This document shows, in pieces, positions 1,323 to 22,965 of a stretch of DNA of 24,861 bases. The stretch comes from a virus. The notes under the pieces were generated by a model that ran no database searches, was not told where the DNA came from, and saw nothing but the letters and a program-made list of their open reading frames with translations. The DNA lies in IMG/VR virus record IMGVR_UViG_3300005939_000434, positions 1 through 24,861 of that record; one strand, given 5' to 3'. Position numbers and translations under genes: made by a program. Positions within the stretch are counted from its first letter, which is position 1. Each line of letters starts with the position of its first letter.

Positions 1323-2987
1323 ATGGCACACGTTGCAAAAGCGAATAAGTATGCTCGTGATGTTGTCAGCGGCAAGGTCGATGCTTGCAAATGGGTGAAG
1401 TTAGCCTGCCAAAGACAGCTTGACGACCTGAAACGATGGAACAAGAAGTCGGACCCGTACTACTTTGACAAAACCAAAGCGGAGCGGGTCTGTAAGTTCA
1501 TTGAAAATTTACCCCACACGAAGGGCAAGTGGGCGGGAACTAATCAAACGCTTGAGCCGTGGCAATGCTTTTTTCTGACAACCTCTTTTGGTTGGATGCG
1601 TACCAAAGATGATACACGGCGATTCAGGGAAATCTATCTGGAAGTGCCTCGAAAGAACGGAAAGTCAATAGTTGCAGCGGATGTTGGGCTGTATCTCTTC
1701 ACTGAAGGCGAGCTTGGTGCTGAGATATACGCCGGTGCTACAAGTGAGAAGCAGGCATGGGAGGTATTCAGGCCAGCACACTTAATGGCTAAGAAGGCCA
1801 AGGGATTTACAGAACATTATGGAATTGACGTAAACGCCTCAAATATTCATTGCCTTGCTACTGCCTCACGCTTCGAGCCTTTGATTGGCAACCCCGGAGA
1901 TGGTGCAAGTCCTCACGGTGCATTGGTTGATGAATACCACGAACACCCGGACTCACGATTGTATGACACCATGATTACAGGCATGGGAAGCAGGGAACAA
2001 CCTATGATGGTCGTTACTACCACGGCTGGGAGTGACACAAGCGGCCCCTGCTATGACAAACGGCATCAGGTTTGCCGAATCCTTGATAAGATCGAGGGGT
2101 TTGAGAATGATGAGGTCTTTGGGGTTATCTATACGATTGACGACGGGGACGCATGGGATGATTTTAAAGTCTGGAAAAAGGCAAACCCTAACTTCGGGAT
2201 TTCAGTCTTTGAGGACTACCTGAAGTCCAGGCACAAAGAAGCTATACAGCGGGCCTCCCGGCAGAACATAATCCGGTGTAAGCACCTAAATCAGTGGATG
2301 AATGCCGGAGAGGCTTTCTTTGATCCCCTAAAATGGGCGAAGTGCGCTGACACTACTCTCGACGTCGAGGACTTCAAAGGCAAAAAATGTTGGGTGGGGA
2401 TTGACCTCGCAAGCAAGATCGACATTGCGGCAAAGATTAAATTGTTCCTTGAGGATAATATTTATTATGTGTTCTGCGATTTCTATTTACCCGAGGATGC
2501 CACGGAGGGTGAGGACAAGGTTCACTATCAGGGGTGGGTACATGAGGGTTACATCACAACTACAATGGGTTCAATGATTGATTTTGACATCATAGAAGAG
2601 GATTTGGAAGAGGATGCAAGAAATTACAATATATTGGAAGTGGCTCACGATCCGTGGAATGCCGCACAGTTTGTCGGACATATGCAGGCAAAGAAAATCC
2701 CAATGATAGAGGTCAGTCAAACTGTCAACCAGATGTCTGACCCGCTGAAGGAACTTGAGGCGCTTATCCTTGAGGATAGGATTAGGCACGATGGCAACCC
2801 GGTTATGGCTTGGATGATGAGCAACGTAATTGCGAAAATTGATAAAAAGGACAATGTTTTTCCGTTCAAATCTCGACCTTCTCAAAAAATTGACGGGCCT
2901 GTTGGCCTGATTATGGCCCTTAGTCGTGCAACACGGCATAAGGACAAGACAAGTAAGTATGAGTCCGAAGGGTTGGTAGCGGTTTGA
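1323..2987 (+). CDS. terL: Terminase large subunit
   Basis: This is the packaging motor ATPase and headful or site nuclease, 554 aa. The Walker A-like motif VPRKNGKS lies around residues 108-115 and the Walker B acidic pair, in ALVDEYHEH, is D203/E204. The coupling segment VVTTTAG follows near 231. The C-terminal RNase H-like nuclease begins with WVGIDLASK, where D361 is a likely metal ligand. The pattern matches the HK97/YmfN-like Terminase_1 family and the length is normal. An SD (GGGGAGAGA) precedes ATG 1323. The TGA stop (2985-2987) overlaps the TTG start of the sugar oxidoreductase at 2984, so the glycan cassette is coupled directly to terL. Confidence 0.97.
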   Translation: MAHVAKANKYARDVVSGKVDACKWVKLACQRQLDDLKRWNKKSDPYYFDKTKAERVCKFIENLPHTKGKWAGTNQTLEPWQCFFLTTSFGWMRTKDDTRRFREIYLEVPRKNGKSIVAADVGLYLFTEGELGAEIYAGATSEKQAWEVFRPAHLMAKKAKGFTEHYGIDVNASNIHCLATASRFEPLIGNPGDGASPHGALVDEYHEHPDSRLYDTMITGMGSREQPMMVVTTTAGSDTSGPCYDKRHQVCRILDKIEGFENDEVFGVIYTIDDGDAWDDFKVWKKANPNFGISVFEDYLKSRHKEAIQRASRQNIIRCKHLNQWMNAGEAFFDPLKWAKCADTTLDVEDFKGKKCWVGIDLASKIDIAAKIKLFLEDNIYYVFCDFYLPEDATEGEDKVHYQGWVHEGYITTTMGSMIDFDIIEEDLEEDARNYNILEVAHDPWNAAQFVGHMQAKKIPMIEVSQTVNQMSDPLKELEALILEDRIRHDGNPVMAWMMSNVIAKIDKKDNVFPFKSRPSQKIDGPVGLIMALSRATRHKDKTSKYESEGLVAV

Positions 2988-3835
2988 AAATCTTAATAAT
3001 CGGCCTTGGCTCAATGGGGCGTAGGTACGTTGATATCTTGAACCATTATGACCATGATCTTTATGCCTTGCGGTCTGGGATAAGTTATGAGGATGCACCT
3101 GAAGGGGTTGAAAGCATAATGCACTATTCAGATATTGGTGTGACTCCTGATATCGCTTTTATCACAAACCCTTCGCACCTTCACATCAAAACGGCCATCG
3201 AATGCGCGAAACGAGGCATTAATCTGTTCATTGAGAAACCGATTGACGTTTCAAGCCGAGATTTAGGAAAGCTGATAGAGATTGTCAAAGAGAAGAAATT
3301 GGCGGCTTACGTGGCTTATCCTTTCCGTTTTCACAGTGGACTTTATGAACTTAGGCGAACCGCTGTTATCCGGGATGCCGAAATAGTATGCAAAACAGAT
3401 TACCGAAAATGGCAACCATATAAAGTTGGAACACATAAACGCAAACATGACGGAGTGCTTTTGGAATTATCACATGAAATCGACATAGCACAATGGTTTT
3501 TTGGCAGAGTTGAGGGTATAAAAGGGTATTTCGGGGATACGACTGCTGATCTGATGCTTGATTGCCTATTTGCTGATCACGACATCAGGGTTAGACTGGA
3601 TTTAGAGAGCGATGTTGAAGAACGTTACATGATGCTTGACGGTCAGGTTTTTCCCTACCAGGCAACTGATGGAATGTATGAGCTTCAGGTCAACTATTAC
3701 CTTGACAATTTCGTGAAGCCTTTAACCTTGATAAATACTCTTGAGAGTGCGGCTGATATGTTTTACCGGTTGATACAGTTTAGGGATGCAGGGAGAGAAG
3801 ATGCCGAACACGTTAGTCACGATATGCGCCCGTAA
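2984..3835 (+). CDS. Gfo/Idh/MocA-family sugar oxidoreductase
   Basis: This is a predicted NAD(P)-dependent oxidoreductase acting on a sugar or sugar nucleotide. The Rossmann motif GLGSMG is at residues 7-12 and the family EKP motif, with the catalytic or cofactor Lys, is at 84-86. A C-terminal alpha/beta domain carries HExDIAQWFFG near residue 165. At 283 aa it is shorter than usual (about 320-350). Translation starts at TTG 2984, overlapping the terL stop. It overlaps the next gene, a CMP-sugar synthetase, by 35 nt. Gfo/Idh enzymes of this kind often lie beside NeuA-like and PtmA-like genes in flagellin-glycan clusters. The exact substrate cannot be told from sequence. Confidence 0.88.
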   Translation: MKILIIGLGSMGRRYVDILNHYDHDLYALRSGISYEDAPEGVESIMHYSDIGVTPDIAFITNPSHLHIKTAIECAKRGINLFIEKPIDVSSRDLGKLIEIVKEKKLAAYVAYPFRFHSGLYELRRTAVIRDAEIVCKTDYRKWQPYKVGTHKRKHDGVLLELSHEIDIAQWFFGRVEGIKGYFGDTTADLMLDCLFADHDIRVRLDLESDVEERYMMLDGQVFPYQATDGMYELQVNYYLDNFVKPLTLINTLESAADMFYRLIQFRDAGREDAEHVSHDMRP

Positions 3836-4580
3836 AGGTTCAAAAGGTCTACCGGGTAAGAATACTAAGCCATTACACGGCAAACCCCTGATAATGTGGA
3901 CCATTGAGCAGTCCCAGGCGTGGAATAAGCTCAGATCAGACATAGAACCGGATTGGGAAAAGGATTACTCACAACCAAACGGTGATATCTGCGTGTCCAC
4001 CGATTCAAGTGAAGTTGTCAGTCTTGTTTCAGGGTTAGGGATGGATATTATTGAACGTCCAGGTAGGCTGGCTGAAGACAACACGGCTAAACTGGATGTG
4101 ATACGCCACGCTCTTAACATTATGCAACGCCGGAAACAGAAGAAATACGAGATGGTTATTGACCTGGACGTTACAAACCCTATGCGAACACCCGAAATGA
4201 TACGGGAAGCGGTATGGGAATTTCAGGAAAAAGACGCAGGAGTCCTTGTTTCTGCTACAAAAGCAAGGAAAAACCCATATTTCAACCAAATTCAGGAGAA
4301 TTACGGCTTTTATAAGCTCGTAGGTGGTGGCCATACTGGGAACCTGGCAAGTAGGCAGGAAGCGCCGCAAGTCTGGGATCTAAATGCGGCAATTACGATA
4401 TTTAGCCATTTGTTCCTTGAAACTTTTGAGTATGCGAAAACCCCAACTGCAACGCCACAGCTTGCTATGTATGAGATGCCTGAGTGGAGCGCATTTGATA
4501 TAGATTCTGAACAAGATTTCCAGATCGTAGAGCTTCTCATGTGCTTGGATTTGGGGAGGGGAATGAATGAGCAGATATGA
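3801..4580 (+). CDS. CMP-nonulosonate synthetase (acylneuraminate cytidylyltransferase family)
   Basis: This enzyme would couple CTP to a nonulosonic acid (sialic, legionaminic or similar) to give the CMP-sugar donor. The nucleotide-binding signature ARKGSKGLPGKN is at residues 10-21, followed by CVSTDS and VIDLDVTNPMRTPEMI, which corresponds to the LQPTSPLR region of NeuA/LegF/PseF. The 259-aa length is close to that of single-domain family members. I chose ATG 3801 because GGGAGAGAAG (3791-3800) lies immediately before it; an in-frame ATG at 3786 has no SD. It overlaps the acyltransferase by 14 nt. It is the last activation step of the pathway encoded around it. Confidence 0.92.
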   Translation: MPNTLVTICARKGSKGLPGKNTKPLHGKPLIMWTIEQSQAWNKLRSDIEPDWEKDYSQPNGDICVSTDSSEVVSLVSGLGMDIIERPGRLAEDNTAKLDVIRHALNIMQRRKQKKYEMVIDLDVTNPMRTPEMIREAVWEFQEKDAGVLVSATKARKNPYFNQIQENYGFYKLVGGGHTGNLASRQEAPQVWDLNAAITIFSHLFLETFEYAKTPTATPQLAMYEMPEWSAFDIDSEQDFQIVELLMCLDLGRGMNEQI

Positions 4581-5103
4581 CGAAGTGCTATATGAGCAGA
4601 CAAACAGGTTTGATAACTGGCAATACCCTGAAATCATAGAAGGCCAGGACACGAAGTACGGTTGGCGTGTATCTCATGTCCACAAGTTTATAATGGGTGA
4701 ACGGGTCGATATCGGATACGGATGCTATATTATGGCCGGGGAAGGGGTGTCAATCGGGAATGATGTCCAGTTGGGGAGCCATTGTAGCGTTTATAGTGTC
4801 AACACTATTGATGATACACGGGGGCCAGTGGTTATAAAAAAGGGAGCGAAAATAGGTGCAAAATCTACTATAATGCCGGGGGTTACGATTGGGGAAGGCG
4901 CAACAGTGGGGGCACATAGCGTTGTGAAAACAGATGTGCCGGATGGGGAAACATGGTTTGGTGTTCCGGCAAAGAGACATGAAAAGTGGGGGAGATATTA
5001 TGTTCACGGGGAAGACTGTAATAGTTGCCGGGGGGTGTGGGTTGATAGGCACAGAGATAGTCGATCAATTCCTGATATTAAATGCAGAGGTCAAAAGCCT
5101 TGA
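4567..5103 (+). CDS. Hexapeptide-repeat (left-handed beta-helix) acyltransferase
   Basis: This is a predicted O- or N-acetyltransferase of the trimeric left-handed beta-helix family. Repeats of the [IV]G-x4 type run from about residue 48 to 125 (VDIGYG, VSIGND, AKIGAK, VTIGEG, ATVGAH), followed by the usual end motif GVPAK at 132-136. In this cassette it best fits the 4-N-acetylation step (LegH/PglD-like role), but the substrate is not provable and O-acetylation is possible. SD GGGAGGGG precedes ATG 4567. The last 35 or so residues are atypical and overlap the SDR gene by 104 nt in another frame, so the C-terminal tail may be an accident of a lost stop codon. Confidence 0.85.
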   Translation: MSRYDEVLYEQTNRFDNWQYPEIIEGQDTKYGWRVSHVHKFIMGERVDIGYGCYIMAGEGVSIGNDVQLGSHCSVYSVNTIDDTRGPVVIKKGAKIGAKSTIMPGVTIGEGATVGAHSVVKTDVPDGETWFGVPAKRHEKWGRYYVHGEDCNSCRGVWVDRHRDSRSIPDIKCRGQKP

Positions 5104-5644
5104 TTCTAACCCAAAGGCGGATCTTCAGGTTGATCTTGTAGACGGTGAATATTTAAAGCTCTTTGACATACCGGATATATTCGTTAATGCGGCATATCCG
5201 AAACGTCACGTAAAACATTTTGGAATATTCCTTGATGCGAGTGTAATCATTGCAAGTCGCATGGCAAACCGTGGACATGGTGTGATTGTCAATCTTGCAT
5301 CCATTTACGGGGTTATAGGCGGCAAGCCTGATATGTATACTGATACCGATGTTAAATACCCACCCATTGGTTACTCAGCGGCCAAGGGTGCGATAATAGC
5401 CCTAACAAGGGCGTTGGCCTGCAAGTATGGGCGGTATGGTGTCAGGGTTAATTGTGTGTCACCTGGGGGGGTCTATGATGGTCAGGATGAGGTGTTTGTT
5501 GACAGGTATTGTGAGAGAGTGCCACTGGGAACAATGGCAACGGCTGAGGATGTGGCAAATGCCGTGATTTTCCTATCGAGTGATAAGGCGGGTTATATAA
5601 CAGGCTGTAACCTTTTAGTGGACGGTGGGATTACGATACAATAA
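5000..5644 (+). CDS. Short-chain dehydrogenase/reductase, PtmA-like
   Basis: This is an NAD(P)-dependent SDR of 214 aa. The dinucleotide motif GGCGLIG is at residues 11-17. The catalytic residues are Ser101 (NLASIYG), Tyr125 and Lys129 (YSAAK). NCVSPGG and LVDGG complete the fold. The segment FVNAAYPK followed by NLASIYGVIGGKP resembles, from memory, flagellin-modification oxidoreductase PtmA, which sits in legionaminic acid loci. At 214 aa it is shorter than typical SDRs (about 250), mainly between residues 35 and 75. I chose ATG 5000 because a GGGGGAG SD lies 5-10 nt upstream; the frame is open from 4934. It overlaps the tail of the acyltransferase gene. Confidence 0.87.
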   Translation: MFTGKTVIVAGGCGLIGTEIVDQFLILNAEVKSLDSNPKADLQVDLVDGEYLKLFDIPDIFVNAAYPKRHVKHFGIFLDASVIIASRMANRGHGVIVNLASIYGVIGGKPDMYTDTDVKYPPIGYSAAKGAIIALTRALACKYGRYGVRVNCVSPGGVYDGQDEVFVDRYCERVPLGTMATAEDVANAVIFLSSDKAGYITGCNLLVDGGITIQ

Positions 5645-5674
5645 AAGACCTATTTGGGTAAGGTGGGGATTGAA

Positions 5675-6043
5675 ATGCGTGAAAGAAGAAAATGCGTGGT
5701 AGAGGCTAATCAGTTTTATCAAGAGGGCTTTTTCATTGGGTATTCAAAAAAAGATGGTAAAATGTTTGCCATTGTGGAAACTAACAATGAGATATCGCAC
5801 TTTAATATAGGGTCCATTTACAGTATTAGGTTTACTGAAGAAAGGGATCATCAAATGTCTGATAAAACAAAAGTTTTGCGTATTATCGAAGCATTATCAG
5901 AACTTAATGCTGGGGACTTAGATGCTTTAAGTGTTGCTGAGTTAGCTCAATTTTACTATTGGATTTCTAAATGGCAAGGATCTGTTTTTCTCAAGTCGGT
6001 TGGTAGGTTAGGGGTACGCATAGAGGGAGCGGATGGAAATTAA
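5675..6043 (+). CDS. Hypothetical protein, 122 aa
   Basis: I do not recognise this protein. It starts at ATG 5675 behind AAGGTGGGG (5660-5668). The N-terminal half looks like a small beta-rich domain (EGFFIGYSKKDGKMFAIV). The C-terminal half, from about residue 62, is helical and Leu/Ala-rich (VLRIIEALSELNAGDLDALS, then ELAQFYYWISKW). It lies between the SDR and the NeuC-like gene with 6 nt to the latter. It reads as more AT-rich than the flanking enzymes. No catalytic motif or membrane segment is visible. An accessory phage gene inserted among the sugar genes is the simplest reading. Confidence 0.6.
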   Translation: MRERRKCVVEANQFYQEGFFIGYSKKDGKMFAIVETNNEISHFNIGSIYSIRFTEERDHQMSDKTKVLRIIEALSELNAGDLDALSVAELAQFYYWISKWQGSVFLKSVGRLGVRIEGADGN

Positions 6044-6049
6044 AATGCA

Positions 6050-7159
6050 ATGAGAATAGCATTAGTGACAGGCAGCCGGGCTGATTGGGGTTTATTATAC
6101 CCACTGGCTAAACACATATGGCAGAGTGATGATACCCTGCAACTATTGGTAACTGGCAGTCACCTATCTCCGACCCACGGTTATACGGTTGATCAGATAA
6201 GCATCCCGGTGTCGGGTGAGATTGAGTGCGTGCTATCGGCTGACACCAAAACGGGCGTATGTAAGGGGGTGTCACTTGCTGTATCTGGCTTCAGTGACGC
6301 ATTCGATGCGTTAGAACCGGATTGTGTGATTGTGTTGGGTGACAGGTGGGAGATATTAGCGGCCTCGATTGCGGCGCATATCCACAGGATTCCTATTTCC
6401 CATTTACACGGAGGTGAAATTACAGCAGGCGCAACGGATGAGGCGTGGCGCCATAGCATTACGAAGATGTCAAGCCTGCATTTCACGGCAACCGAGACAT
6501 ACCGAAACCGGGTTATCCAGTTAGGGGAGCATCCAGACACAGTGTTTAATGTGGGTGCTTTGGGTACACAGGGATTGATTTGTCGGGATAAGCAACCAAA
6601 CAACGGAAAGGTAGTTGTTCTTTATCATCCAGAGACGTTACACCCAAATTCTATCACAGATTTTTGGAACATTATCGAAGTTCTAAAGGAATTAGACCTT
6701 AAACCTACCCTTATAATGTCAAACGCTGATAATGGTGGCCACAATATCAATAGGATAATTGAACAACAGGGGTACGGGAATCTTTGGGAAGTGTTCACTT
6801 CAAAACATAGGGATGATTTTCTTTCCCTGTTAATGGGTTCTGACGCCATTATCGGAAACTCAAGCGCGGGTATTATCGAAGCCCCAGCCTTGGGAGTGCC
6901 GACAATCAACGTTGGTAATCGGCAAAAGGGGCGCGAGATGGCAAGCTCTATCCTGAACGTAGAAACTGCTACGATTGATAACATTAAAGACGCTTTTGGT
7001 ATACTTTATTCTGACCTGTTTCAAGATGGATTATTCAACATCTATGCGCCATATGGTAAAGGCGAGAACGTGGCGGGAAAGATTTTTGACATTATCAAGA
7101 AAGAGATAGGGAATATTAATCTTATGAAAGGATTTTATGATGTGTCATTTACCGCATGA
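6050..7159 (+). CDS. UDP-sugar hydrolysing 2-epimerase, NeuC/LegG type
   Basis: This enzyme would hydrolyse and 2-epimerise a UDP-HexNAc (UDP-GlcNAc or UDP-diNAc-bacillosamine) to release the ManNAc-type sugar used by NeuB-family synthases. Diagnostic motifs are TGSRADWGLLYP (residues 7-18), VVLGDRWEIL near 98, HLHGGEITAGATDEAWRHSI near 119, and the C-terminal GNSSAGIIEAPALGVPTINV. These match the hydrolysing NeuC/NnaA branch rather than the unrelated PseG. The 369-aa length is normal. It follows the 122-aa gene by 6 nt and overlaps the start of a small Cys-rich frame. NeuC acting on UDP-GlcNAc and LegG acting on the diacetamido sugar cannot be separated by eye, but the dehydratase and aminotransferase nearby favour LegG. 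Confidence 0.93.
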   Translation: MRIALVTGSRADWGLLYPLAKHIWQSDDTLQLLVTGSHLSPTHGYTVDQISIPVSGEIECVLSADTKTGVCKGVSLAVSGFSDAFDALEPDCVIVLGDRWEILAASIAAHIHRIPISHLHGGEITAGATDEAWRHSITKMSSLHFTATETYRNRVIQLGEHPDTVFNVGALGTQGLICRDKQPNNGKVVVLYHPETLHPNSITDFWNIIEVLKELDLKPTLIMSNADNGGHNINRIIEQQGYGNLWEVFTSKHRDDFLSLLMGSDAIIGNSSAGIIEAPALGVPTINVGNRQKGREMASSILNVETATIDNIKDAFGILYSDLFQDGLFNIYAPYGKGENVAGKIFDIIKKEIGNINLMKGFYDVSFTA

Positions 7160-7352
7160 GGGAGATAGTCCATTTTCACATATACCAGGATGCCAAGGCG
7201 GGAGCGGTGCTTTTGAAAAGCGTAAATTGAAGCTCTGTTGGACTTGTTCAAACTATACTCACCATGAGCATAGATGGAAATGGACAGCGTGGATATGTGG
7301 GCGAACCCAATTATTCTTATTAAAAATTATGGGTATTAGAATTGCATCTTGA
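7140..7352 (+). CDS. Small Cys/His/Trp-rich protein, putative zinc-binding
   Basis: This 70-aa open frame starts at ATG 7140 (an adjacent in-frame ATG lies at 7137) behind AAAGGA (7126-7131). It overlaps the NeuC-like gene by 20 nt and the TTG start of the aminotransferase by 11 nt. It carries Cys-x-His near the start, PGCQGG, CWTCSNYTHHEH and a later single Cys, which suggests zinc binding. Trp residues cluster in RWKWTAWIC. I do not recognise a family. The tight fit between two firm genes and the spaced Cys residues favour a real small phage gene, but the SD is modest. Confidence 0.5.
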   Translation: MCHLPHEGDSPFSHIPGCQGGSGAFEKRKLKLCWTCSNYTHHEHRWKWTAWICGRTQLFLLKIMGIRIAS

Positions 7353-8412
7353 TTTTGGAAATATAGGGATAGACGAAGTACATCTTGTCGATAAGGCGCT
7401 ATGCGATGGTATGGTCTCTACTGCAACGCCACAGGTTACAGAATTTGAACAGAAGATTGCTGGCTATCTTAATATGCCTGATGCTGTGGCGACCAATTCA
7501 GGAACCGCAGCTTTACACCTTGCTCTTTTAGTCTGTGGGGTAGGTCCAGGAGATGAGGTTATACTTCCGGCGCTGACTTTTATTGCGACTGCAAACGCTG
7601 TTTGTCATACTGGAGCCAAGCCTGTCTTTGTTGATGTTGACCGGGATACCTGGAACATAGACCCTGACTTGGTTACACAGGCAATAACGGACAAGACAAA
7701 GGCCATAATCCCAGTTCACTTATATGGAAACCCTTGTGATATGGGGGCCTTATATGAGGCAACAAAGGGGACACAAATAAGCATCATTGAGGACGCTGCG
7801 GAAAGCCTGGGTGCGACTTATCAGGGGATGCAAACCGGGACTATTGGCGATGTTGGGTGCTTCTCATTCAATGGCAATAAGACCATGACAACAGGCGGGG
7901 GCGGGTTATTAGTTAGCAATGACCCTGAGAAGATATTGAAGGCTCGATGTTTGTCAATGCAGGGAAGAAATAAACACGGAATACAGGTTGATGTCGGCTA
8001 CAATTACAAAATGACAGGGCTTGCAGCTTCGTTAGGGTTGGCACAGTTTGATAGATTGCAGGAGTTTCTTGTTAAAAAAGAAGTGTTTCATCTTTATTAT
8101 ACCACTATCTTACAAGTTACCAATAAAGACATTAAGTTTCAGATACCGACAGCCTACTCTATATCTTCATGGTGGTACACGGCCTGTGCATTCAAAGAAG
8201 AAGCTGAGACAATACAAAACAAGCTCTCAGCATTAGCTATTCCAACAAGGCGCGTCTTTAAACCAATACCCTATGAGTTACCCTACTATGACGGTAACAG
8301 CTATCCTGATGCCGATTACATATACAGGCACGGCCTTTGCTTACCAAGTTCAACTTTGAACACGATTGAAGATATTGACAAAGTATGTGAAGCGATAAAG
8401 GGGGTATTATGA
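7342..8412 (+). CDS. PLP-dependent sugar aminotransferase, DegT/LegC type
   Basis: This enzyme would transaminate a 4-keto-6-deoxy-HexNAc nucleotide at C4, the second step toward diamino nonulosonic acids. NSGTAALHLAL (residues 52-62), the GDEVILP block and the EDAAESLGA block (150-158) form the PLP pocket. The Schiff-base Lys is K180 in SFNGNKTMTTGGGG. That SFNGNK-TTGGGG form is, from memory, typical of LegC rather than PseC (SFHxxKxITTGEGG). Length is 356 aa. Translation starts at TTG 7342; no better in-frame start is evident. It ends in an ATGA overlap with a tiny membrane protein gene. A PglE-like enzyme is the main alternative. Confidence 0.92.
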   Translation: MHLDFGNIGIDEVHLVDKALCDGMVSTATPQVTEFEQKIAGYLNMPDAVATNSGTAALHLALLVCGVGPGDEVILPALTFIATANAVCHTGAKPVFVDVDRDTWNIDPDLVTQAITDKTKAIIPVHLYGNPCDMGALYEATKGTQISIIEDAAESLGATYQGMQTGTIGDVGCFSFNGNKTMTTGGGGLLVSNDPEKILKARCLSMQGRNKHGIQVDVGYNYKMTGLAASLGLAQFDRLQEFLVKKEVFHLYYTTILQVTNKDIKFQIPTAYSISSWWYTACAFKEEAETIQNKLSALAIPTRRVFKPIPYELPYYDGNSYPDADYIYRHGLCLPSSTLNTIEDIDKVCEAIKGVL

Positions 8413-8576
8413 GGAAGTTCCCAAATGTTCATTTGCATTTCAAGGATAAAACACTGTCCTTTGAACCGGCTGATAACGTTTTTGCATTTATTAACTGTTC
8501 ATTTATATTCATGGTTGGGTATTTGATTTTGTTGCCGTCTATATTATGTGGAAAGGTTACAAAGAATGAAGGATAA
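8409..8576 (+). CDS. Small membrane protein, 55 aa
   Basis: This short frame starts at ATG 8409, overlapping the aminotransferase stop as ATGA, and ends at TAA 8574-8576, 11 nt before the next gene. It has a polar N-terminus (MRKFPNVHLHFKDK), then one hydrophobic helix at about residues 24-47 (FAFINCSFIFMVGYLILLPS) and a short basic C-terminus. That predicts a single-pass inner-membrane protein. I do not recognise a family. Coupling to a glycan gene leaves open a role at the membrane, but this is not shown. Confidence 0.6.
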   Translation: MRKFPNVHLHFKDKTLSFEPADNVFAFINCSFIFMVGYLILLPSILCGKVTKNEG

Positions 8577-8587
8577 CAGGGGGAGAT

Positions 8588-8917
8588 ATGAGAGAGGGTT
8601 GGAACTTTATTTTAAGGCATGATAGAGATTTTGATACGGTCAATTTATGGATGATACACCAGGAGCGTAATGGGCCGAGAACCATAGTTGAGCCAATAAA
8701 TTTGACGCTTAGAAAAGAGTGGGGAGAAGCAGAAATAGCACCTGAACCAACGATTAAGTTTTGCGGTGATATTGCCAATGATTTTCTGAAAGCCTTCGCC
8801 GACGGTCTTGTTGCAGCCGGATTTAGGCCAGATGAATTGAAAGCGTCCGACAAAGAAGTTGTAGCAATAAATGACCACTTGCAAGATATGCGGACTTTGG
8901 TTTTCAAGAAGGATTAA
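8588..8917 (+). CDS. Hypothetical protein, 109 aa
   Basis: I do not recognise this protein. It starts at ATG 8588 with a clear SD (GGGGGA, 8579-8584). The N-terminal part reads as beta strands (WNFILRHD, TVNLWMIHQER, PRTIVEPINLTL) and the C-terminal part as a helix (GDIANDFLKAFADGLVAAGF). The frequent acidic and basic residues suggest a soluble cytoplasmic protein. It ends one base before the TTG start of the dehydratase. Compact phage-type proteins of this shape often have no known function. Confidence 0.68.
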   Translation: MREGWNFILRHDRDFDTVNLWMIHQERNGPRTIVEPINLTLRKEWGEAEIAPEPTIKFCGDIANDFLKAFADGLVAAGFRPDELKASDKEVVAINDHLQDMRTLVFKKD

Positions 8918-8918
8918 T

Positions 8919-9842
8919 TTGAAAAATAAAACCATCCTGATAACCGGCGGCACTGGAAGCCTCGGACAGGAACTAACCAGACAGATACTAAAACAAGGCC
9001 CTAAAAAGGTTATTGTTTATAGCCGGGGTGAGTTAGCGCAGGTTGAGATGTCCCGGAAGTTCTCCGACAAACGGGTAAGGTTCTTTATTGGGGATGTCAG
9101 GGATTTAGGCAGGTTAAAAAGAGCTTTTGAAGGTGTTGACTTGGTGATCTTTGCATCCGCGCTAAAACATGTAGATATCTGTGCTTTCAATCCGATTGAA
9201 GCCATTAAAACAAACATAATAGGAGCGCAGAACACCATTGATGCGGCAATAGATTGTAATGTCAAAAAGGTCATTGCTATTAGCTCGGACAAAGCGGCGA
9301 ATCCGATAAACCTCTACGGTGCAACAAAGCTATGCGCCGACAAGCTCTTTATAGCCTCGAATGCCTATTCGGGAAAGCATGGTTGTCAATTTTCTGTTGT
9401 AAGGTTCGGTAATTTTGAAAATTCTAACGGTTCGGTGATTCCATACTGGAAAAGGCTAATAAAAGAGGGTGCGAAAACCCTTCCCATGACCGACCCAGAC
9501 ATGACACGGTTTTTTATTAAGTTAGAGGACGCTGCGAAATTCACATTGAAGGCTCTTAACGAGGCGAAGGCCGGGGAAACGTGGTGTCCTAAAATGCAGA
9601 CGTATTCTTTATTGGAGTTAGCCAGATCAATAAGTTACGATATTGGGATTGAATACACGGGAAAACGGCCAGGAGAAAAGAAGCATGAAGACATGATCGT
9701 AAAAGACGATGCCGATAGGACATTTGCGTTTCCAGATCATTATGTGGTGTTGCCTGAGTTTGCCTGGATGCAATCGGAAGTCCCAGAGGATGGTTTGAAA
9801 GTTCCTGAACGGTTTGAATATAGGTCGGGGGGGGGGGATTAA
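8919..9842 (+). CDS. UDP-GlcNAc 4,6-dehydratase, PseB-like
   Basis: This is an extended-SDR dehydratase that would convert UDP-GlcNAc to a UDP-4-keto-6-deoxy sugar, the entry step to bacillosamine, pseudaminic or legionaminic acid. The NAD motif GGTGSLG is at residues 10-16. The catalytic set is D124/K125 (SSDKAANP) and Y133 with K137 (YGATK). RPGEKKHEDMI and the ending VPExFEYxSG match soluble PseB. I chose TTG 8919 because AGAAGGA lies just upstream and the protein then begins at the Rossmann fold; an open frame from ATG 8871 adds residues that overlap the previous gene. The 307-aa length is slightly short. The last codons contain an 11-nt G tract. Confidence 0.93.
   Translation: MKNKTILITGGTGSLGQELTRQILKQGPKKVIVYSRGELAQVEMSRKFSDKRVRFFIGDVRDLGRLKRAFEGVDLVIFASALKHVDICAFNPIEAIKTNIIGAQNTIDAAIDCNVKKVIAISSDKAANPINLYGATKLCADKLFIASNAYSGKHGCQFSVVRFGNFENSNGSVIPYWKRLIKEGAKTLPMTDPDMTRFFIKLEDAAKFTLKALNEAKAGETWCPKMQTYSLLELARSISYDIGIEYTGKRPGEKKHEDMIVKDDADRTFAFPDHYVVLPEFAWMQSEVPEDGLKVPERFEYRSGGGD
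9827..9837 (+). repeat. Homopolymeric G tract (11 G)
   Basis: Eleven consecutive G residues encode the Gly-Gly-Gly near the dehydratase C-terminus and lie 5 nt before the TTG start of the next gene, where an SD is expected. Tracts of this length are known slippage sites in phase-variable glycan genes of Campylobacter and Helicobacter. A one-base change would alter the dehydratase C-terminus and the spacing to TTG 9843. An assembly or homopolymer sequencing error is also possible. Confidence 0.9.
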
Positions 9843-10067
9843 TTGACAGAAAAACGAACCATAATTTGTGATGGTTGTCATTGTGAATGTGAACCTAAAC
9901 AACTCGATCCATCTATTCCTGAAATGACATACCCATACCATGTGTCGCGGCATGTTATGGACGTAGACGATGGTAATGAATGGGATTTTAGTCGTACTGA
10001 AGAATGGGATTTCTGTTCATTTGGTTGTTTAGTTAAAGGTTTAAGTTTAAATGGGGTGACTGATTGA
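9843..10067 (+). CDS. Small Cys-rich putative zinc-binding protein, 74 aa
   Basis: Translation starts at TTG 9843, directly after the dehydratase stop and 5 nt after a G11 tract that could act as SD. The protein has CDGCHCEC near residues 9-16 and CSFGC at about 58-62. This paired CxxC...CxxGC layout suggests a treble-clef or zinc-ribbon site. The middle is acidic (MDVDDGNEWDFSRTEEWDF). It overlaps the NeuB-like gene by 4 nt. I do not recognise the family. Small phage zinc proteins of this kind may bind nucleic acid or protein. Confidence 0.6.
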   Translation: MTEKRTIICDGCHCECEPKQLDPSIPEMTYPYHVSRHVMDVDDGNEWDFSRTEEWDFCSFGCLVKGLSLNGVTD

Positions 10068-10837
10068 CGGTTAAGATTGTTGCTGAAGCGGGTATCAACT
10101 GTTCATCGTCATTATCAACTGCTAAACGTATGGCAGACATTGCGATTGAGTGCGGGGCAGATGCAGTCAAATTTCAGACATTCAGCAAAGACCGATTTCC
10201 GGCCATTGAGCATTTACGGATGCCGTGGAAAAAGCAGAAACGTCTCTTTTGGTATTGCAATGAGCAAGGCATTAAATGGTTCTCAACTCCATTTGATTTC
10301 TCAGCCATAAACTTTCTAATCCAGATGGATATGAAGACCTGGAAAGTGCCAAGCGGTTTGATAACCAATACCGGATACCTGAAGCGAATAGCGGTTTGCC
10401 GGGGTAAGAAGATCCTTTCAACTGGGATGTCTAACCTGGATGAGGTCAATGTTGCGATTGGGTACTTGGGTAGGTCGAGTTTAACGCTTTTACATTGTAC
10501 GAGTTTATATCCAACGCCATACGATCAGGTTAATTTATCGGCTATGTTTTCATTGCGTGAACAGTTTGGTTTGCCGGTGGGTTTAAGTGATCACAGTCAA
10601 GGCATTGAGGTTCCGATTGCGGCGGCGGCAATGGGTGCGGAAATAATAGAAAAGCATTTTACGTTTGATAGAAATGCAACCGGGCCAGACCATGCCGCGT
10701 CCATAGAACCGCACGAATTAAAACAGATGGTAAGGTCAATCAGGAACGTAGAACAGGCGATAGGGGATGGTGTGAAGAAGTGTAGCAAGGGAGAAAGAGG
10801 GATGGTGAAGGAAATTAGAACGAGGATGAATAACTAA
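10064..10837 (+). CDS. Nonulosonic acid synthase, NeuB/LegI-like TIM barrel lacking SAF domain
   Basis: This enzyme would condense phosphoenolpyruvate with a 6-carbon HexNAc sugar to form a nine-carbon nonulosonic acid. Motifs include AEAGIN (residues 7-12), GADAVKFQTF (31-40), STPFD, KVPSG, STGMS, the metal-site His residues H177 (GLSDHSQG) and H198 (EKHFT), and GPDHAAS. The 257-aa length is well below the usual 340-350. It ends just after the barrel, where the antifreeze-like SAF domain normally starts, and the region between KFQTF and STPFD is also short. It starts at TTG 10064 behind GGGGTGA. Its stop overlaps the next ATG (TAATG). Confidence 0.92.
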   Translation: MTVKIVAEAGINCSSSLSTAKRMADIAIECGADAVKFQTFSKDRFPAIEHLRMPWKKQKRLFWYCNEQGIKWFSTPFDFSAINFLIQMDMKTWKVPSGLITNTGYLKRIAVCRGKKILSTGMSNLDEVNVAIGYLGRSSLTLLHCTSLYPTPYDQVNLSAMFSLREQFGLPVGLSDHSQGIEVPIAAAAMGAEIIEKHFTFDRNATGPDHAASIEPHELKQMVRSIRNVEQAIGDGVKKCSKGERGMVKEIRTRMNN

Positions 10838-11166: not shown

Positions 11167-11364
11167 ATGGCAGGCGTAATAAGTGATTCACAAGGGTTAG
11201 GCGGTGACTCTATAGTAACGCCGAGTGGTTCAAAAAAGTTAGAGATATCTGATGCTAACGCCATATCTCTTCTGGAGGGAATATTAACTACCCTTAAAAA
11301 GATTGAATACCATCTTTATTTGGGAACAGATACGGAACTTAAAGACCAGGATGTAGGAGGATAA
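11167..11364 (+). CDS. Small phage protein, 65 aa
   Basis: This small protein follows its neighbour by 3 nt. Its N-terminus is flexible and Gly/Ser-rich (MAGVISDSQGLGGDS) and its C-terminus is helical (ISLLEGILTTLKKIEYHLYLGTD). Such short helical proteins just before phage structural genes are common, but I cannot assign a function. AGGAGG (11354-11360 region) inside its 3' end serves as the SD of the next gene. Confidence 0.6.
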   Translation: MAGVISDSQGLGGDSIVTPSGSKKLEISDANAISLLEGILTTLKKIEYHLYLGTDTELKDQDVGG

Positions 11365-11365
11365 A

Positions 11366-11920
11366 ATGCCGACACTAAATGACGCAAACGGAACGCCGGT
11401 AAGCGTAGACGATGAAAACATGGTAAAAACATTGGCTGTTACAGAGTCATTAGAGGGTCACTCAAATAGACGGCATGGATCTGCTTACACGTGGCAGTTT
11501 TCAAATGACCCTGCCGCCGCTGATGACTGTATCTTTTACATAAAGAACAATGATGACTTACCCCTTATCCTTGAAGGGATAGACCTTTTTATCACTGACG
11601 ACTGTGATGTTTACCTCAAGCTTGGTGGGACAGGCACAACCGCCGCTGGAACAACAGTAACCGGAACAAACATGAACGCTGGAAGTGGTAACGATGCTGA
11701 TGTTACTTGTCTCCACGCTGAGGATATCGAAGCTGGTGGGACATTTTCAGGCGCGGTTGAGTGTTGCCGTTTTATTTATGAGTCCGGGACATTAGTTGAC
11801 ACTCACCACATGAACTTCCCAATGGATATAATAATCCCAAAAAATCAGGTGTTTTCTCTTTGGGTTGATACTATTTCAATCGTTGTAAAAGGAACTCTGT
11901 ACGGATTTTTCCATGATTAA
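11366..11920 (+). CDS. Probable virion structural protein, 184 aa
   Basis: This is a Thr/Gly/Asp-rich beta protein starting at ATG 11366 behind TAGGAGG. Visible features are a conserved-looking TWQFSNDP near residue 44, a run of acidic strands (IDLFITDDCDVYLKL), and a Thr/Gly-rich loop (GGTGTTAAGTTVTGTN). The C-terminus is strand-rich (QVFSLWVDTISIVVKGT). The composition fits a head decoration or tail-associated beta-sandwich protein. It overlaps the start of the 435-aa gene by 8 nt. The family is not recognised. Confidence 0.62.
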   Translation: MPTLNDANGTPVSVDDENMVKTLAVTESLEGHSNRRHGSAYTWQFSNDPAAADDCIFYIKNNDDLPLILEGIDLFITDDCDVYLKLGGTGTTAAGTTVTGTNMNAGSGNDADVTCLHAEDIEAGGTFSGAVECCRFIYESGTLVDTHHMNFPMDIIIPKNQVFSLWVDTISIVVKGTLYGFFHD

Positions 11921-13220
11921 ACACATCCTCGCAGATAAAGTCGGTATCCCGGTTGAGATCAATTCTGACCCAGGAGAGGACACAGGGTTGGTCGTGGCTA
12001 CACGTCCTCATAAGACCTTTGACACTAAGACAGTGTTCTTCATAAACCCCACCTATGGCCGTGAGATGGCCCAGAACGGCGCATACGGCGATGTTGTCTG
12101 GATGGTACATGATGGCACAGACACGACCGAAGCGGACAGCGGTAATTGTGACGGGATTGGAGTTGACACGAACAAGCTGAAGGACAGCTTGCAGAACTTC
12201 ACCGATACGGTTGTGGCTGGAATGACGGTTCATAATACCACCGATGGGACGTATACATGGGTTACAGCGGTTGATAATGATACCACTCTGACCTTATTAG
12301 ATGACATTATGGATGATGGTGAGGATTACATCATATCGCCTACGTGGACATTCAGCGAGCCTACTGGCACAAAATGGATTGAAAATAACACTGAGCAATT
12401 CCACAACGGGACAAAGAGCTTGAAATGTGATAACCCCGTAATTGGTGACATCCTACAACTCTTGAACGTTAATGGTGAAGGGATTACACTGGCTCACTGT
12501 ACTGCCATAACGATGTGGATTTATGTTGATAAGGACTGGGCAGCGGGGGATTCATTTTCTCTGTACGGCCATAACGCCGGAGCGCTGATAGGAAATAAGG
12601 TCTATCTTGAGGATTATTTCGATTATGATAATTATGATACATGGCATCTTATCTCCATACCATTGGCAGACATGGGATTGACTGTTCAAACACTGGATGC
12701 ACTCAGGATTGAAAACGAGGCACGGGAAGGCGGTAAAAGCCCCAAGTTTTGGATAGATGAACTTAGATTAAGAGTATCAGGAACCCCGATTGATTATGAA
12801 GTTATTCCAGACAAAGGCACATGGTTTCACATTAAGTCTTTTCAAACCACTTTCGTAGATGCTGTTACGGCAGACAATGCCGATTCAACCATGATGAATT
12901 TGTCCTATGACAAGATACTGGATATGACCCCAACAACGGGATATATTTACAGAAGGTATTGTGAAGGCAACACAGACCCGGTTTTTGAAGTACGCATTAC
13001 CAATCTGATGGACTTGTTATCGTTGCCTTATTCGAGTATCACAAACGCAATATCAGACGGGACCAACACTCTAATAACCATAACCAACGAGTACCCTGCG
13101 GGGGTGGCATTTGTCCTGAAGGCAGAGGATCTTGACAAGATAGTCTACACCGTTGAAGATGATTTCAGCCAGTTATTATTTTTCAGAATCAGTGTCCAAG
13201 GATATGTAGAACATAGGTAA
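11913..13220 (+). CDS. Probable virion protein with carbohydrate-binding-like domain, 435 aa
   Basis: This large beta-rich protein has three visible parts. Residues about 1-145 include FTDTVVAGMTVHNTTDGTYTW and end in a Thr/Asp-rich strand segment of a type common in phage neck and fibre proteins. Residues about 145-290 look like a jelly-roll carbohydrate-binding module: HNGTKSLKC, MWIYVDKDW, YDTWHLISIPL, LDALRIEN and FWIDELRL follow the strand order seen in many CBM-like folds. Residues 290-435 are a further beta domain ending FRISVQGY. It likely belongs to the virion and may bind a glycan. ATG 11913 overlaps the previous gene. Confidence 0.62.
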   Translation: MIKHILADKVGIPVEINSDPGEDTGLVVATRPHKTFDTKTVFFINPTYGREMAQNGAYGDVVWMVHDGTDTTEADSGNCDGIGVDTNKLKDSLQNFTDTVVAGMTVHNTTDGTYTWVTAVDNDTTLTLLDDIMDDGEDYIISPTWTFSEPTGTKWIENNTEQFHNGTKSLKCDNPVIGDILQLLNVNGEGITLAHCTAITMWIYVDKDWAAGDSFSLYGHNAGALIGNKVYLEDYFDYDNYDTWHLISIPLADMGLTVQTLDALRIENEAREGGKSPKFWIDELRLRVSGTPIDYEVIPDKGTWFHIKSFQTTFVDAVTADNADSTMMNLSYDKILDMTPTTGYIYRRYCEGNTDPVFEVRITNLMDLLSLPYSSITNAISDGTNTLITITNEYPAGVAFVLKAEDLDKIVYTVEDDFSQLLFFRISVQGYVEHR

Positions 13221-13537: not shown

Positions 13538-13547
13538 GGGGGGGGGG
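13538..13547 (+). repeat. Homopolymeric G tract (10 G) in the ribosome-binding site
   Basis: Ten consecutive G residues preceded by A and followed by T lie directly before ATG 13549 of the amidotransferase. The 5' AGG-GG part can act as SD, so tract length sets the SD-to-start spacing. Slippage would change translation rate without changing the protein. A sequencing homopolymer error is the alternative. Confidence 0.9.
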
Positions 13548-13548
13548 T

Positions 13549-14640
13549 ATGAAACGATGTATCACTTGTCTCAATACAGAGACGCGGCCACGCGTAGAGT
13601 TTAATAAAGCCGGGGTGTGTAATGGTTGTCAGCACACAGAAAAGAAGGCCAAGATTGACTGGGAGAAACGCTGGCAGGATCTTGAAAAGCTCTGTGACAA
13701 ATTCAGGAACAAGAACCGGTGGGATGTCATTGTCCCGGTATCGGGTGGCAAAGACAGTTCATTCGTAGCTTGGAAATTAAAGTACGATTTAGGGATGAAC
13801 CCGCTTTGCGTGACTTTCTCACCTCCCATGCAGACGGAGATAGGCCGTATTAACCTTGAGAACTTCCGCAACAGTGGGTTTGATTTGATTGAGATCCGGC
13901 CAAACCCTGAAGTTTACCGTCGGTTGTGTAAGAAGATGTTCATTGAGCAGGCAAGATCGAAGTTTCCTTTTGTGATTGGGATAGGAACGTCAGTGTCAAG
14001 GGTTGCCTTGAACTTTGGAATACCGTTCATCATGTGGGGAGAAAACGGCGAGGAAGAATATGGCGGAAAAACGACTTCCCAGGACTTCATGACCTATGAG
14101 TTTATGACTAAGTTTTATCACGAGGGCAACGATCTTTCAAAATGGACTGATGAGTTCACCGAGGCGGAACTGCAATGGTGGATGTTACCTCCTAAGAAGG
14201 ACATTGAAGCTCTCTCTGTTACATGGTATAGCAAGTGGGCGCCGTGGGATGACCAACTTCACAGGGATGTTGCGATTGAGAAATGCGGTCTAAAAGGGAC
14301 AGCATCACAGACCGGGACATTCACAACTCATTCTCAAATTGATGATATGATGCAAGACCTCCTGATGTATGAGTGCTTCGTCAAGTTCGGGTTTGGTAGG
14401 GCAACGGCTGACTGCAACCTTGCTATAAAAGCGGGTCGAATGACAAGGGATACCGGGATTGAGATTGTGAAGGAACAAGACGGCGAGTTCCCTCTGCAAT
14501 ATCTGTATGAATACCTTGAGTATTTCCAGATGGAAGAGTGGGAGTTCTGGGAAGTGCTTCATAGCCACGCGAACCTTGATATTTTGCAGCAAGTTGATGA
14601 TCCGGCGAGGCCGTATATACTGAGAGACCCGGTTATATAA
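13549..14640 (+). CDS. N-acetyl sugar amidotransferase, PseA/WbpG-like (PP-loop)
   Basis: This enzyme would convert an acetamido group on a sugar into an acetamidino group using ATP and an ammonia donor. In Campylobacter PseA does this for pseudaminic acid, and Legionella legionaminic acid carries such a group. The N-terminus has two CxxC pairs (C4/C7 and C24/C27) of a zinc ribbon, then IDWEKRW and the ATP-binding PP-loop SGGKDS at residues 65-70. GENGEEEYGG follows near residue 164. The 363-aa length fits the family. No HisH/HisF-type glutaminase partner is visible in the window. Its stop overlaps the sulfotransferase start (TAATG). Confidence 0.92.
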   Translation: MKRCITCLNTETRPRVEFNKAGVCNGCQHTEKKAKIDWEKRWQDLEKLCDKFRNKNRWDVIVPVSGGKDSSFVAWKLKYDLGMNPLCVTFSPPMQTEIGRINLENFRNSGFDLIEIRPNPEVYRRLCKKMFIEQARSKFPFVIGIGTSVSRVALNFGIPFIMWGENGEEEYGGKTTSQDFMTYEFMTKFYHEGNDLSKWTDEFTEAELQWWMLPPKKDIEALSVTWYSKWAPWDDQLHRDVAIEKCGLKGTASQTGTFTTHSQIDDMMQDLLMYECFVKFGFGRATADCNLAIKAGRMTRDTGIEIVKEQDGEFPLQYLYEYLEYFQMEEWEFWEVLHSHANLDILQQVDDPARPYILRDPVI

Positions 14641-15455
14641 TGGACTACAAAAAAGCCTTAACTGATAAAGTCATTCTAATTACCGGCGCCGGACGGTCAG
14701 GCACGACCATCCTTGGCAAGATTATAGGGTCGATGGAACCGGCTTATTATCTATTTGAACCAAGCATCTTTAAGTTTATTATGCGGGATGCTGAATGGCT
14801 TCGGGCCATAGTATTTGAAGATTATTGGCTATTGCAGGTGCAGGGTCGTAACCTAAACATAAATGAAAAAGATGATTCGTATTTCGGCAATTATAGGACA
14901 GATTGGGTGCATCCGTTGGGCAGGAATGATGACATTAGAGAGTGCCTACAATCAAAACTTGTAATCAAACTAACAGAGTTTCAAAACAGGATTGCGTGGG
15001 CCGGGCATTTATTTCCCGGAGTGAAGGTCATCCATATTTATCGCAACGGGAATGACGTAGTTGATTCTATGCTAAAGCGCGGATGGTACACAGACGAATA
15101 CATGGAAACCGGGTGTCTTGACCACTGTTATGAAGGTGTGCCTTATTTCGTATATGGGCAAGCGGCAAGGGAGTTTCAAGGATATAATCAGATTACTCGG
15201 TGCGCTTGTGTGTGGCGATGTTCAACGGAGGCTGGCCTAAAGGAGAATGATGTGGTTGATATACGGTATGAAGATTTGGCACATACAGATTTTAATATTC
15301 TGGCTGGTCGGTTGGGTCTTGGAATTACAGATTTAACCGTGAAGCATATAAGATCAATCAAAGAACCACGAAAGCACAAACCAATAATAGACCAAATACA
15401 GGAACCGGAAAAGGGTCGTTTTATGGCTCTTATGGGACGGTTAGAATATGTTTAA
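14640..15455 (+). CDS. PAPS-dependent sulfotransferase
   Basis: This is a predicted sulfotransferase that moves sulfate from 3'-phosphoadenosine-5'-phosphosulfate to a sugar or other hydroxyl. The 5'-phosphosulfate loop GAGRSGTT is at residues 16-23. The 3'-phosphate site is VKVIHIYRNGNDVVDSML near residues 128-145, with Arg and a Ser in the expected places. DIRYEDLA near residue 206 is the usual late family motif. Length (271 aa) is normal. The start overlaps the amidotransferase stop, so the two are probably made together. The acceptor is unknown; sulfation of the phage-made glycan is an inference. Confidence 0.9.
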   Translation: MDYKKALTDKVILITGAGRSGTTILGKIIGSMEPAYYLFEPSIFKFIMRDAEWLRAIVFEDYWLLQVQGRNLNINEKDDSYFGNYRTDWVHPLGRNDDIRECLQSKLVIKLTEFQNRIAWAGHLFPGVKVIHIYRNGNDVVDSMLKRGWYTDEYMETGCLDHCYEGVPYFVYGQAAREFQGYNQITRCACVWRCSTEAGLKENDVVDIRYEDLAHTDFNILAGRLGLGITDLTVKHIRSIKEPRKHKPIIDQIQEPEKGRFMALMGRLEYV

Positions 15456-17649: not shown

Positions 17650-17666
17650 ATCCCGGTGTCCGGGAT
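17650..17666 (+). promoter_or_regulatory. Perfect 7-bp hairpin after the in-frame TGA
   Basis: ATCCCGG (17650-17656) pairs with CCGGGAT (17660-17666) around the loop TGT. It begins 12 nt after the TGA, and the loop is 19-21 nt downstream of it. This spacing and a G in the apical loop are compatible with a bacterial SECIS element or a readthrough stimulator. No T-run follows, so it is not an intrinsic terminator. It could also mask the GTG at 17656. Confidence 0.6.
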
Positions 17667-21720: not shown

Positions 21721-22326
21721 ATGGGACAGACAAAAGCAAGATGGAGAAACAACATGCTTCAGTTTTATGGCGATGCCATGTATACGGCTGTTGCTTCTCA
21801 AAGCACAAATGTAAGAGTAACCGGGGTCGGGGTTGATACTCCGACGGTTGCGGTTGCGTGTCCGATATATGCGGATACGTTATCGACTGCCGGGAACATG
21901 CACTTTCACGCCAAGATAGCTGGTGTGTGTGCATCCTCAACAGCTTCGGTAATCGCTTCACTGAGATATGGTACGACTACTATTTTGACCTGTACCGTTC
22001 CATCGAGTGGGCATAAACATGTGGCTTCAAATCTTCCTTATAACTTCGATTTCTACGGACGATTCGCAGTTGCTTCCAGTTCCGGGCTTCTCACTTCGGT
22101 GGGCGTTGGAATGATGGGAAGAACAACAAGATACACGGAATGCGTAGGTACAACCGGATCAACGGCTGGTGGAACCAAGTTTGCATCAACCAAAATCAAT
22201 AACGTAGGTAACTCAACGTTAGGTTTGAATGTCGTCATTAGCCTGGTATCTACTCAGACAGGCGGTGCCGGTACTGCATCAGGTTTTACTAACAGCGTTG
22301 GCTACATTGAGCTATTCAGTGGATAA
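21721..22326 (+). CDS. Tandem paralogue 1, Ser/Thr-rich probable virion protein, 201 aa
   Basis: This is the first of three related proteins in a row. Shared features are KxRWxNxxLxFxxAxM at the N-terminus, TTNV-like SxxTNV near residue 28, ACPIYADTLSTAGNMHFHAKIAGVC, SLRYGTTTIL, PYNFDFYGRFAVASSSG, the TTGSTxG box, TLGLN and STQTGGAGT, ending GYIELFSG. The many Ser and Thr residues and beta pattern suggest a head fibre, decoration or tail protein. GGAGGTAAAT is its SD. The paralogues keep length and motif order but have diverged across most positions. Confidence 0.68.
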   Translation: MGQTKARWRNNMLQFYGDAMYTAVASQSTNVRVTGVGVDTPTVAVACPIYADTLSTAGNMHFHAKIAGVCASSTASVIASLRYGTTTILTCTVPSSGHKHVASNLPYNFDFYGRFAVASSSGLLTSVGVGMMGRTTRYTECVGTTGSTAGGTKFASTKINNVGNSTLGLNVVISLVSTQTGGAGTASGFTNSVGYIELFSG

Positions 22327-22335
22327 GGAGAAACA

Positions 22336-22956: not shown

Positions 22957-22965
22957 GAGGAAAAT

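Follow-up and report, generated by a model that had tools for sequence, protein, structure and literature searches.

A phage packaging and head operon with a predicted route to a legionaminic-type CMP-nonulosonate and a candidate GT42/Maf-like transferase

Phage glycosyltransferases, for example those of mycobacteriophages, sugar-coat virion proteins using ordinary nucleotide sugars. Among systems that involve nonulosonic (sialic-acid-like) acids, the VP4 spike of the virus HRPV-1 carries 5-N-formyl-legionaminic acid made by the host (PMC6137143), and Maf proteins place nonulosonates on flagellin (PMC13317340). A literature search for phage nonulosonate pathways returned only the prophage genes epaA/epaB and related prophage work; it covered open-licence papers only and is weak evidence of novelty. 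Here we analyzed the viral DNA IMGVR_UViG_3300005939_000434, a linear fragment of 24,861 bp that is a whole IMG/VR record (the window), in which a cassette of sugar genes lies between the terminase gene terL and the portal gene. An earlier note had proposed that this cassette holds a complete nonulosonate pathway. Our analyses point to a self-contained system of a tailed phage in which a legionaminic-type, probably amidino-bearing nonulosonate linked to cytidine monophosphate (CMP) would be made and then put on virion proteins, a reading to which we give a probability of about 0.57.

All enzyme classes named in the earlier note were recovered, each where it had been placed, by family and solved-structure searches, and the matches for each step add up to the complete class set for a CMP-diacylamido-nonulosonate within a phage packaging and head operon. 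The core genes are given below; labels of the type L230 denote contigs and loci found in our searches.

2984..3835, + strand: Gfo/Idh/MocA oxidoreductase (PF01408, E 5e-11), at the same place in L230 and L286, with a counterpart in the Elusimicrobia legionaminic acid (Leg) cluster L092
3801..4580, + strand: CMP-nonulosonate synthetase, NeuA/LegF/PseF class (PF02348, E 9e-15; PDB 6ifd, E 1e-26), with a ARKGSKGLPGKN motif
4567..5103, + strand: hexapeptide N-acyltransferase, LegH/NeuD class (PF00132; TIGR03570, 69.8 bits, below cut-off)
5000..5644, start codon inferred, + strand: short-chain dehydrogenase/reductase (SDR), adh_short_C2, PtmA/AciE/EpaB class (PF13561, E 1e-25; NF050062 PtmA, 90.7 bits, below cut-off)
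6050..7159, + strand: hydrolysing UDP-sugar 2-epimerase, LegG/NeuC (TIGR03568, 345.5 bits, cut-off 235.9)
7342..8412, + strand: LegC-family pyridoxal phosphate aminotransferase (TIGR04181, 317 bits, cut-off 420, versus 233 for PseC)
8919..9842, + strand: UDP-GlcNAc (uridine diphosphate N-acetylglucosamine) 4,6-dehydratase, PseB/FlaA1 type (TIGR03589, 400.5 bits, cut-off 407.75)
10064..10837, + strand: compact NeuB/LegI synthase without SAF domain (PF03102, E 4e-80)

LegC, PseB, NeuB and the CMP-synthetase thus have clear Pfam matches though they lie under the curated NCBIfam cut-offs, and a check of catalytic residues showed the key motifs of the cassette enzymes to be intact, with none missing. 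The solved relatives of the acyltransferase are hexapeptide acetyltransferases. The epimerase is considered LegG-like because its nearest solved structure is the diacetylbacillosamine 2-epimerase 5zlr (238 bits, versus 123 for 4zht), and the aminotransferase is distant from the PseC structure 2fn6 (92 bits). The best solved relative of the dehydratase is FlaA1 2gn4 (312 bits, E 6e-92), with which it shares an identical DKAANPINLYGATK segment containing the catalytic Asp-Lys...Tyr. It is not of the retaining LegB type, as the LegB model TIGR04180 gives 58 bits against 400 bits for TIGR03589 and FlaA1 ranks best in the PDB.

In known NeuB enzymes, the SAF domain extends into the active site of the partner subunit. 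The window NeuB (257 aa) has no C-terminal SAF/antifreeze domain, and the full-length model TIGR03569 gives 307.6 bits versus a cut-off of 399.65; the motifs EAG, KFQ, STPFD, KxPSG, HCxSxYP, SDH and EKHF are all present. SAF-less NeuB proteins also occur in L230, L231 and L154 (237-270 aa) and in L006. The last of these is a different phage, in which a CMP-synthetase, a HAD-like protein and the SAF-less NeuB occupy positions 2717-4498, flanked by genes that resemble terL and portal; this gene set suggests a phosphatase-type route.

Judged from sequence, the presence of a NeuB-class synthase and a CMP-nonulosonate synthetase, both with intact motifs, argues for CMP-nonulosonate biosynthesis, and the LegC-type aminotransferase together with the hydrolysing LegG/NeuC 2-epimerase for the legionaminic type. 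In the proposed route, UDP-GlcNAc would be dehydrated by the PseB-type enzyme and aminated at C4 by LegC, after which the hexapeptide enzyme would N-acylate the sugar and LegG/NeuC would hydrolyse it and invert C2. The compact NeuB would then condense the sugar with phosphoenolpyruvate, and the NeuA/LegF-class enzyme would activate it with cytidine triphosphate. The SDR, the Gfo/Idh enzyme and an amidotransferase would tailor the sugar to a legionaminic-type CMP-5,7-diamido nonulosonate that probably bears an acetamidino group and that a sulfotransferase may sulfate.

Both the later enzymes of the route and the hydrolase, which inverts C2, suggest a skeleton of the legionaminic type, and a plain pseudaminic acid (Pse) pathway was ruled out: neither a PseC- nor a PseG-class enzyme was found among the family matches of the operon, and the epimerase slot is filled by NeuC/LegG. 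The nonulosonate interpretation of the earlier note therefore stands as regards a complete Leg-like class set, but because a PseB-type inverting dehydratase is combined with Leg-type downstream enzymes, the product is not plain Pse and cannot safely be called plain Leg. PseB inverts C5, and by stereochemical inference LegC acting on that sugar would lead to the 8-epimer. PseB can also make the re-epimerised keto sugar (PMC13317340), and LegC acting on this one would give the plain legionaminic type. Acinetobacter SDRs like AciE and EpaB (adh_short_C2) have been linked to 8-epimer nonulosonates (PMC5595891, PMC12053666), so the window SDR could matter for 8-epimer formation.

The predicted transferase, which the earlier note had missed, lies downstream of the capsid gene:

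19781..21094, + strand: major capsid protein (PF05065, E 3e-44)
21721..23577, + strand: three paralogous Ser/Thr-rich small proteins, candidate acceptors (37-46% mutual identity, 22-26% Ser+Thr)
24025..24846, + strand: predicted CMP-nonulosonate transferase, GT42/Maf-like fold (AlphaFold2 model, predicted local distance difference test [pLDDT] 85.6; structure comparison; NeuB association)

The 24025-24846 protein matches neither Pfam nor PHROGs, and a search of IMG/VR with it returned 157 relatives. A first model, built on three sequences, had a low pLDDT of 48 and was not used. With a 54-member family profile, GT42 enzymes rank first in the PDB (E 0.003). The AlphaFold2 model aligned to Cst-I with Z 12.0 and a root-mean-square deviation of 3.5 over 167 residues, and to CstII, the Pasteurella sialyltransferase and Maf 5mu5 with Z scores of 11.5, 11.3 and 10.1, respectively; the top 13 Foldseek matches were all GT42. 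The curated GT42 family PF06002 did not match the window protein, and nine of the 54 relatives matched it weakly (best E 0.0045). GxxPS, Asn62 and GVD segments align to CstII, and the phage family has a conserved motif of its own, GVDM...EY..QRPS.EY...G.A.G, and a long C-terminal helix. The central fold of the 273-aa protein resembles Maf 5mu5, but the 5mu5 chain has 632 residues and further domains, for which the phage protein is too short. We predict that this protein is a GT42/Maf-like transferase of CMP-nonulosonate. It would transfer the sugar to virion proteins during head assembly, late in infection, with the neighbouring small virion proteins as the likeliest acceptors; the phage could benefit through the charge or masking of its particle, through binding to receptors, or by evading host defences.

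Genes for the transferase and for nonulosonate synthesis occur together. NeuB was found in 29 of 50 transferase-bearing contigs and in none of 50 control contigs chosen by TerL similarity (Fisher p 1e-11, a value inflated by related contigs), with the same counts for the CMP-synthetase. When the transferase-bearing contigs were clustered at 50% identity, 12 of the 19 clusters held NeuB. NeuB lies upstream of an HK97-type portal on the same strand in all nine contigs with both. In all 26 loci with a capsid match, the transferase comes after the capsid gene, at a distance of 0.5-3.6 kb and in the same orientation. Starting from NeuB alone, 80 IMG/VR loci were found, of which 56 have a CMP-synthetase within 10 kb and 17 the transferase; among whole contigs, the transferase is present in 12/15, which were chosen for rich gene sets and are unfair as a rate. 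A simpler arrangement, terL-cmpT-neuB-portal, is found in L233-L235. Other viral contigs hold different sets: L257, L258 and L267 encode LegX, LegB, LegC, LegG, NeuB, HisF, an amidotransferase and a GT42-like gene, Leg pathways fuller than that of the window, and the large contigs L002, L003 and L004 (68-156 kb) contain Pse-type sets with PseB, a PseC-like protein, NeuB and CMP-synthetase.

The cassette itself is conserved. In the 40-kb contig L230, the order is terL, Gfo/Idh, CMP-synthetase, acyltransferase, SDR, NeuC, LegC, PseB, NeuB, amidotransferase, sulfotransferase and portal, identical to that of the window. L231 (91 kb) keeps the window order from the CMP-synthetase onward, L286 (115 kb) has all ten module enzymes in the same order, and L250 and L154 have partial sets directly before the portal. 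L230, L238 and L260 are one contig from different searches, as are L231, L240 and L252. Because independent phage contigs repeat the module with its gene order unchanged, the cassette is not due to chance. Between the window, L230 and L231, the module proteins share 28-57% identity and the portals 39-45%. In the LegC tree, the phage copies form a clade (97/97) that is sister to LegC of bacterial Leg clusters; the phage NeuC copies likewise form a clade (91/99), and support for the amidotransferase is weaker (83/90). The identities of module proteins and portals, together with the LegC and NeuC clades, therefore indicate old shared inheritance within phages. That this is a widespread and previously undescribed phage system, with its own amidino, perhaps sulfated 8-epi-legionaminic donor and a new GT42/Maf-like family beside the capsid gene coating the virion, is a tentative proposal that we put a little short of even odds. 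In L231 (reverse complement), an RtcB-like RNA ligase open reading frame (ORF), judged from the start of its sequence, lies inside the sugar cassette at 6137-7216. A phage-collection record with neuA/B/C, FPLJ01000048.1 (L151), proved to be a Moritella bacterial capsule contig and was discarded.

Besides the core enzymes, the cassette contains two tailoring genes, also missed by the earlier note, and virion-type proteins:

11167..13220, + strand: three virion-type proteins, h65, h184 and h435 (tblastn to L155 7748-9870; weak Phage_cement match, E 0.06)
13549..14640, + strand: N-acetyl-sugar amidotransferase, WbuX/PseA/LegA class (TIGR03573, 316.6 bits, cut-off 203.2)
14640..15455, + strand: sulfotransferase (PF13469, E 1e-7), at the same place before the portal in L230, L231, L154 and L250

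These genes for amidino and sulfo modification form part of the module, and the amidotransferase predicts an acetamidino group on the sugar. It shares 57% and 47% identity with its L230 and L231 counterparts. A single-protein scan of IMG/VR gave no match for it, an alignment-based search found 12 loci, and no record of the phage collection matched. In relatives, this enzyme is accompanied by HisF/HisH, both of which are present in L232; there, amidotransferase, HisH and HisF lie together at 17-2677, near NeuB and CMP-synthetase and upstream of terL. The h65, h184 and h435 proteins are possible acceptors, because their L155 relatives directly precede the transferase (9902).

The recognisable genes of the window are all on the + strand and comprise, in order, a DNA methylase, terS, terL, the cassette, portal, protease, capsid, small virion-type proteins and the unannotated 273-aa protein. 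The cassette is bordered by:

1323..2987, + strand: terminase large subunit, upstream border (PF03354/PF20441)
15598..17637, + strand: portal, downstream border (PF04860, E 6e-100)

As the earlier note had stated, the cassette begins at the terL stop and precedes the portal; its first gene overlaps that stop by 4 bp, and the portal begins at 15598. Most neighbours from terL to portal overlap or are ~10 bp apart, the exceptions being gaps of 91-142 bp, and besides the sugar enzymes this interval contains small ORFs, the virion-type proteins, the amidotransferase and the sulfotransferase. The methylase (N6/N4, 2-703) is incomplete at the contig start. ORF 17656-18333, after the portal, encodes a HESGH motif like that of zincins and weakly matches a DNA-ejection pilot protein family; a peptidase or effector linked to the portal is one possibility. 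Runs of 11 G at 9827-9837 (pseB 3' end) and 10 G at 13538-13547 (just before the amidotransferase start) are possible slippage sites; poly-G runs of at least 8 are no commoner than chance by count.

Several observations weigh against a complete virion-coating system. The dehydratase and the aminotransferase come from different stereochemical branches, so that flux along the whole route cannot be taken for granted; NeuC and WbuX are the only matches that exceed the cut-off of a curated NCBIfam model; the window has no HisF/HisH pair dedicated to the amidotransferase; and NeuB was not seen in 21 of the 50 transferase-bearing contigs, though many of these are fragments. The mixed PseB/LegC origin and the NeuB without SAF domain could also mean that the genes are decaying, or that they serve another nucleotide sugar without a nonulosonate product. 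This is very improbable: NeuB-class synthases make nonulosonates, the barrel motifs of the window NeuB are intact, SAF-less NeuB recurs in the four contigs named above, and none of the module ORFs is interrupted in three divergent phages. Least probable of all, to the point that we give it almost no weight, is that the contig is a chimera in which assembly fused host glycan genes to phage sequence. L088 and L089, two contigs from other samples that match at 100% identity, share their start at window base 18468, so that the left part of the contig has no second near-identical IMG/VR copy; the population may be variable just upstream of this base. The synteny check refutes misassembly, since the module lies between or beside the same phage genes in the independent contigs L230, L231, L250 and L154, and the terL overlap, uniform strand and even composition also argue against a chimera.

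The remaining doubts concern transfer. In the phage protein, the general-base His of GT42 enzymes was not found. The MptE-like kinase MptE/HPPK 8sd5, which has the same fold, scores Z 10.4, close behind GT42, as does thiamine pyrophosphokinase at Z 10.3, so the 24025-24846 protein might be something else, such as an MptE-like kinase, with host transferases using the CMP-sugar. As GT42 ranks first in the sequence profile, Foldseek and VIA-align, and the association with NeuB and CMP-synthetase is strong, we regard this as distinctly unlikely. The main rival is that the same pathway and transferase coat the host surface (lipopolysaccharide, capsule or flagellin), masking receptors, excluding rival phages or keeping virions off debris. 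The nearest solved folds, the GT42 enzymes of known function CstII and Cst-I, act on cell-surface glycans, and prophage epaA/epaB, with a CMP-transferase domain and an adh_short_C2 SDR of the same Pfam family as the window SDR, alter the Acinetobacter capsular nonulosonate (PMC12053666). Nevertheless, host-surface coating appears unlikely: the transferase sits in the head gene block wherever a capsid match was found, the synthesis genes between terL and portal imply expression when the host is near lysis, no flippase, polymerase or O-antigen genes were recognised in the window, and the phage would make the whole sugar rather than merely change that of the host. A virion acceptor is favoured because the transferase adjoins the capsid gene and the cassette is in a packaging/head operon. 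The earlier note had allowed for virion proteins or the host surface; its late expression is inferred from gene order, and virion attachment, to putative acceptors, is made more likely by the position of the GT42/Maf-like protein.

In the known cases, phages alter or borrow a host nonulosonate, whereas here a phage lineage appears to hold the whole route and a candidate transferase across very divergent contigs. Sialic-acid-like coating of bacterial viruses may thus be common. For a phage protein family that had no annotation, the analysis points to a possible function, and the candidate acceptors encoded beside the capsid gene can be tested. The compact SAF-less NeuB enzymes are a further subject for study.

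The Elusimicrobia/Omnitrophota clusters with the nearest LegC together hold LegB, LegC, LegX, LegH, LegI, LegG, PtmA, Gfo/Idh, LegF, WbuX, HisF and HisH (names by similarity), and by comparison the phage set is a Leg-type cluster with a PseB-type dehydratase. It shares LegC, acyltransferase, LegG, LegI/NeuB, LegF-class synthetase, PtmA-like SDR, Gfo/Idh and WbuX with bacterial Leg clusters (Campylobacter LegB/C/H/G/I/F with PtmA; L092-L094). Unlike these, it lies between terL and portal, a PseB-type dehydratase replaces LegB, NeuB is SAF-less, a sulfotransferase is added, and LegX/PtmE, HisF and HisH are absent from the window. Acinetobacter prophage epaA/epaB (8-epipseudaminic acid; PMC12053666) likewise come from a phage and encode enzymes of the CMP-transferase class and SDR type that act on a nonulosonate; however, they modify a host-made sugar and affect the capsule, whereas the window encodes a predicted synthesis from UDP-GlcNAc and a putative transferase. 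The likeness to HRPV-1 is a legionaminic-type sugar on a virion protein, predicted here, but HRPV-1 is an archaeal pleomorphic virus that relies on host enzymes. The 24025-24846 protein resembles GT42 (CstII, Cst-I) and Maf in its predicted fold and expected use of CMP-nonulosonate, and differs from them in its lack of a curated family match, its own motif, its long C-terminal helix and its place in a phage head gene block. Compared with virion glycosylation of the mycobacteriophage type, the donor sugar itself would here come from phage genes.

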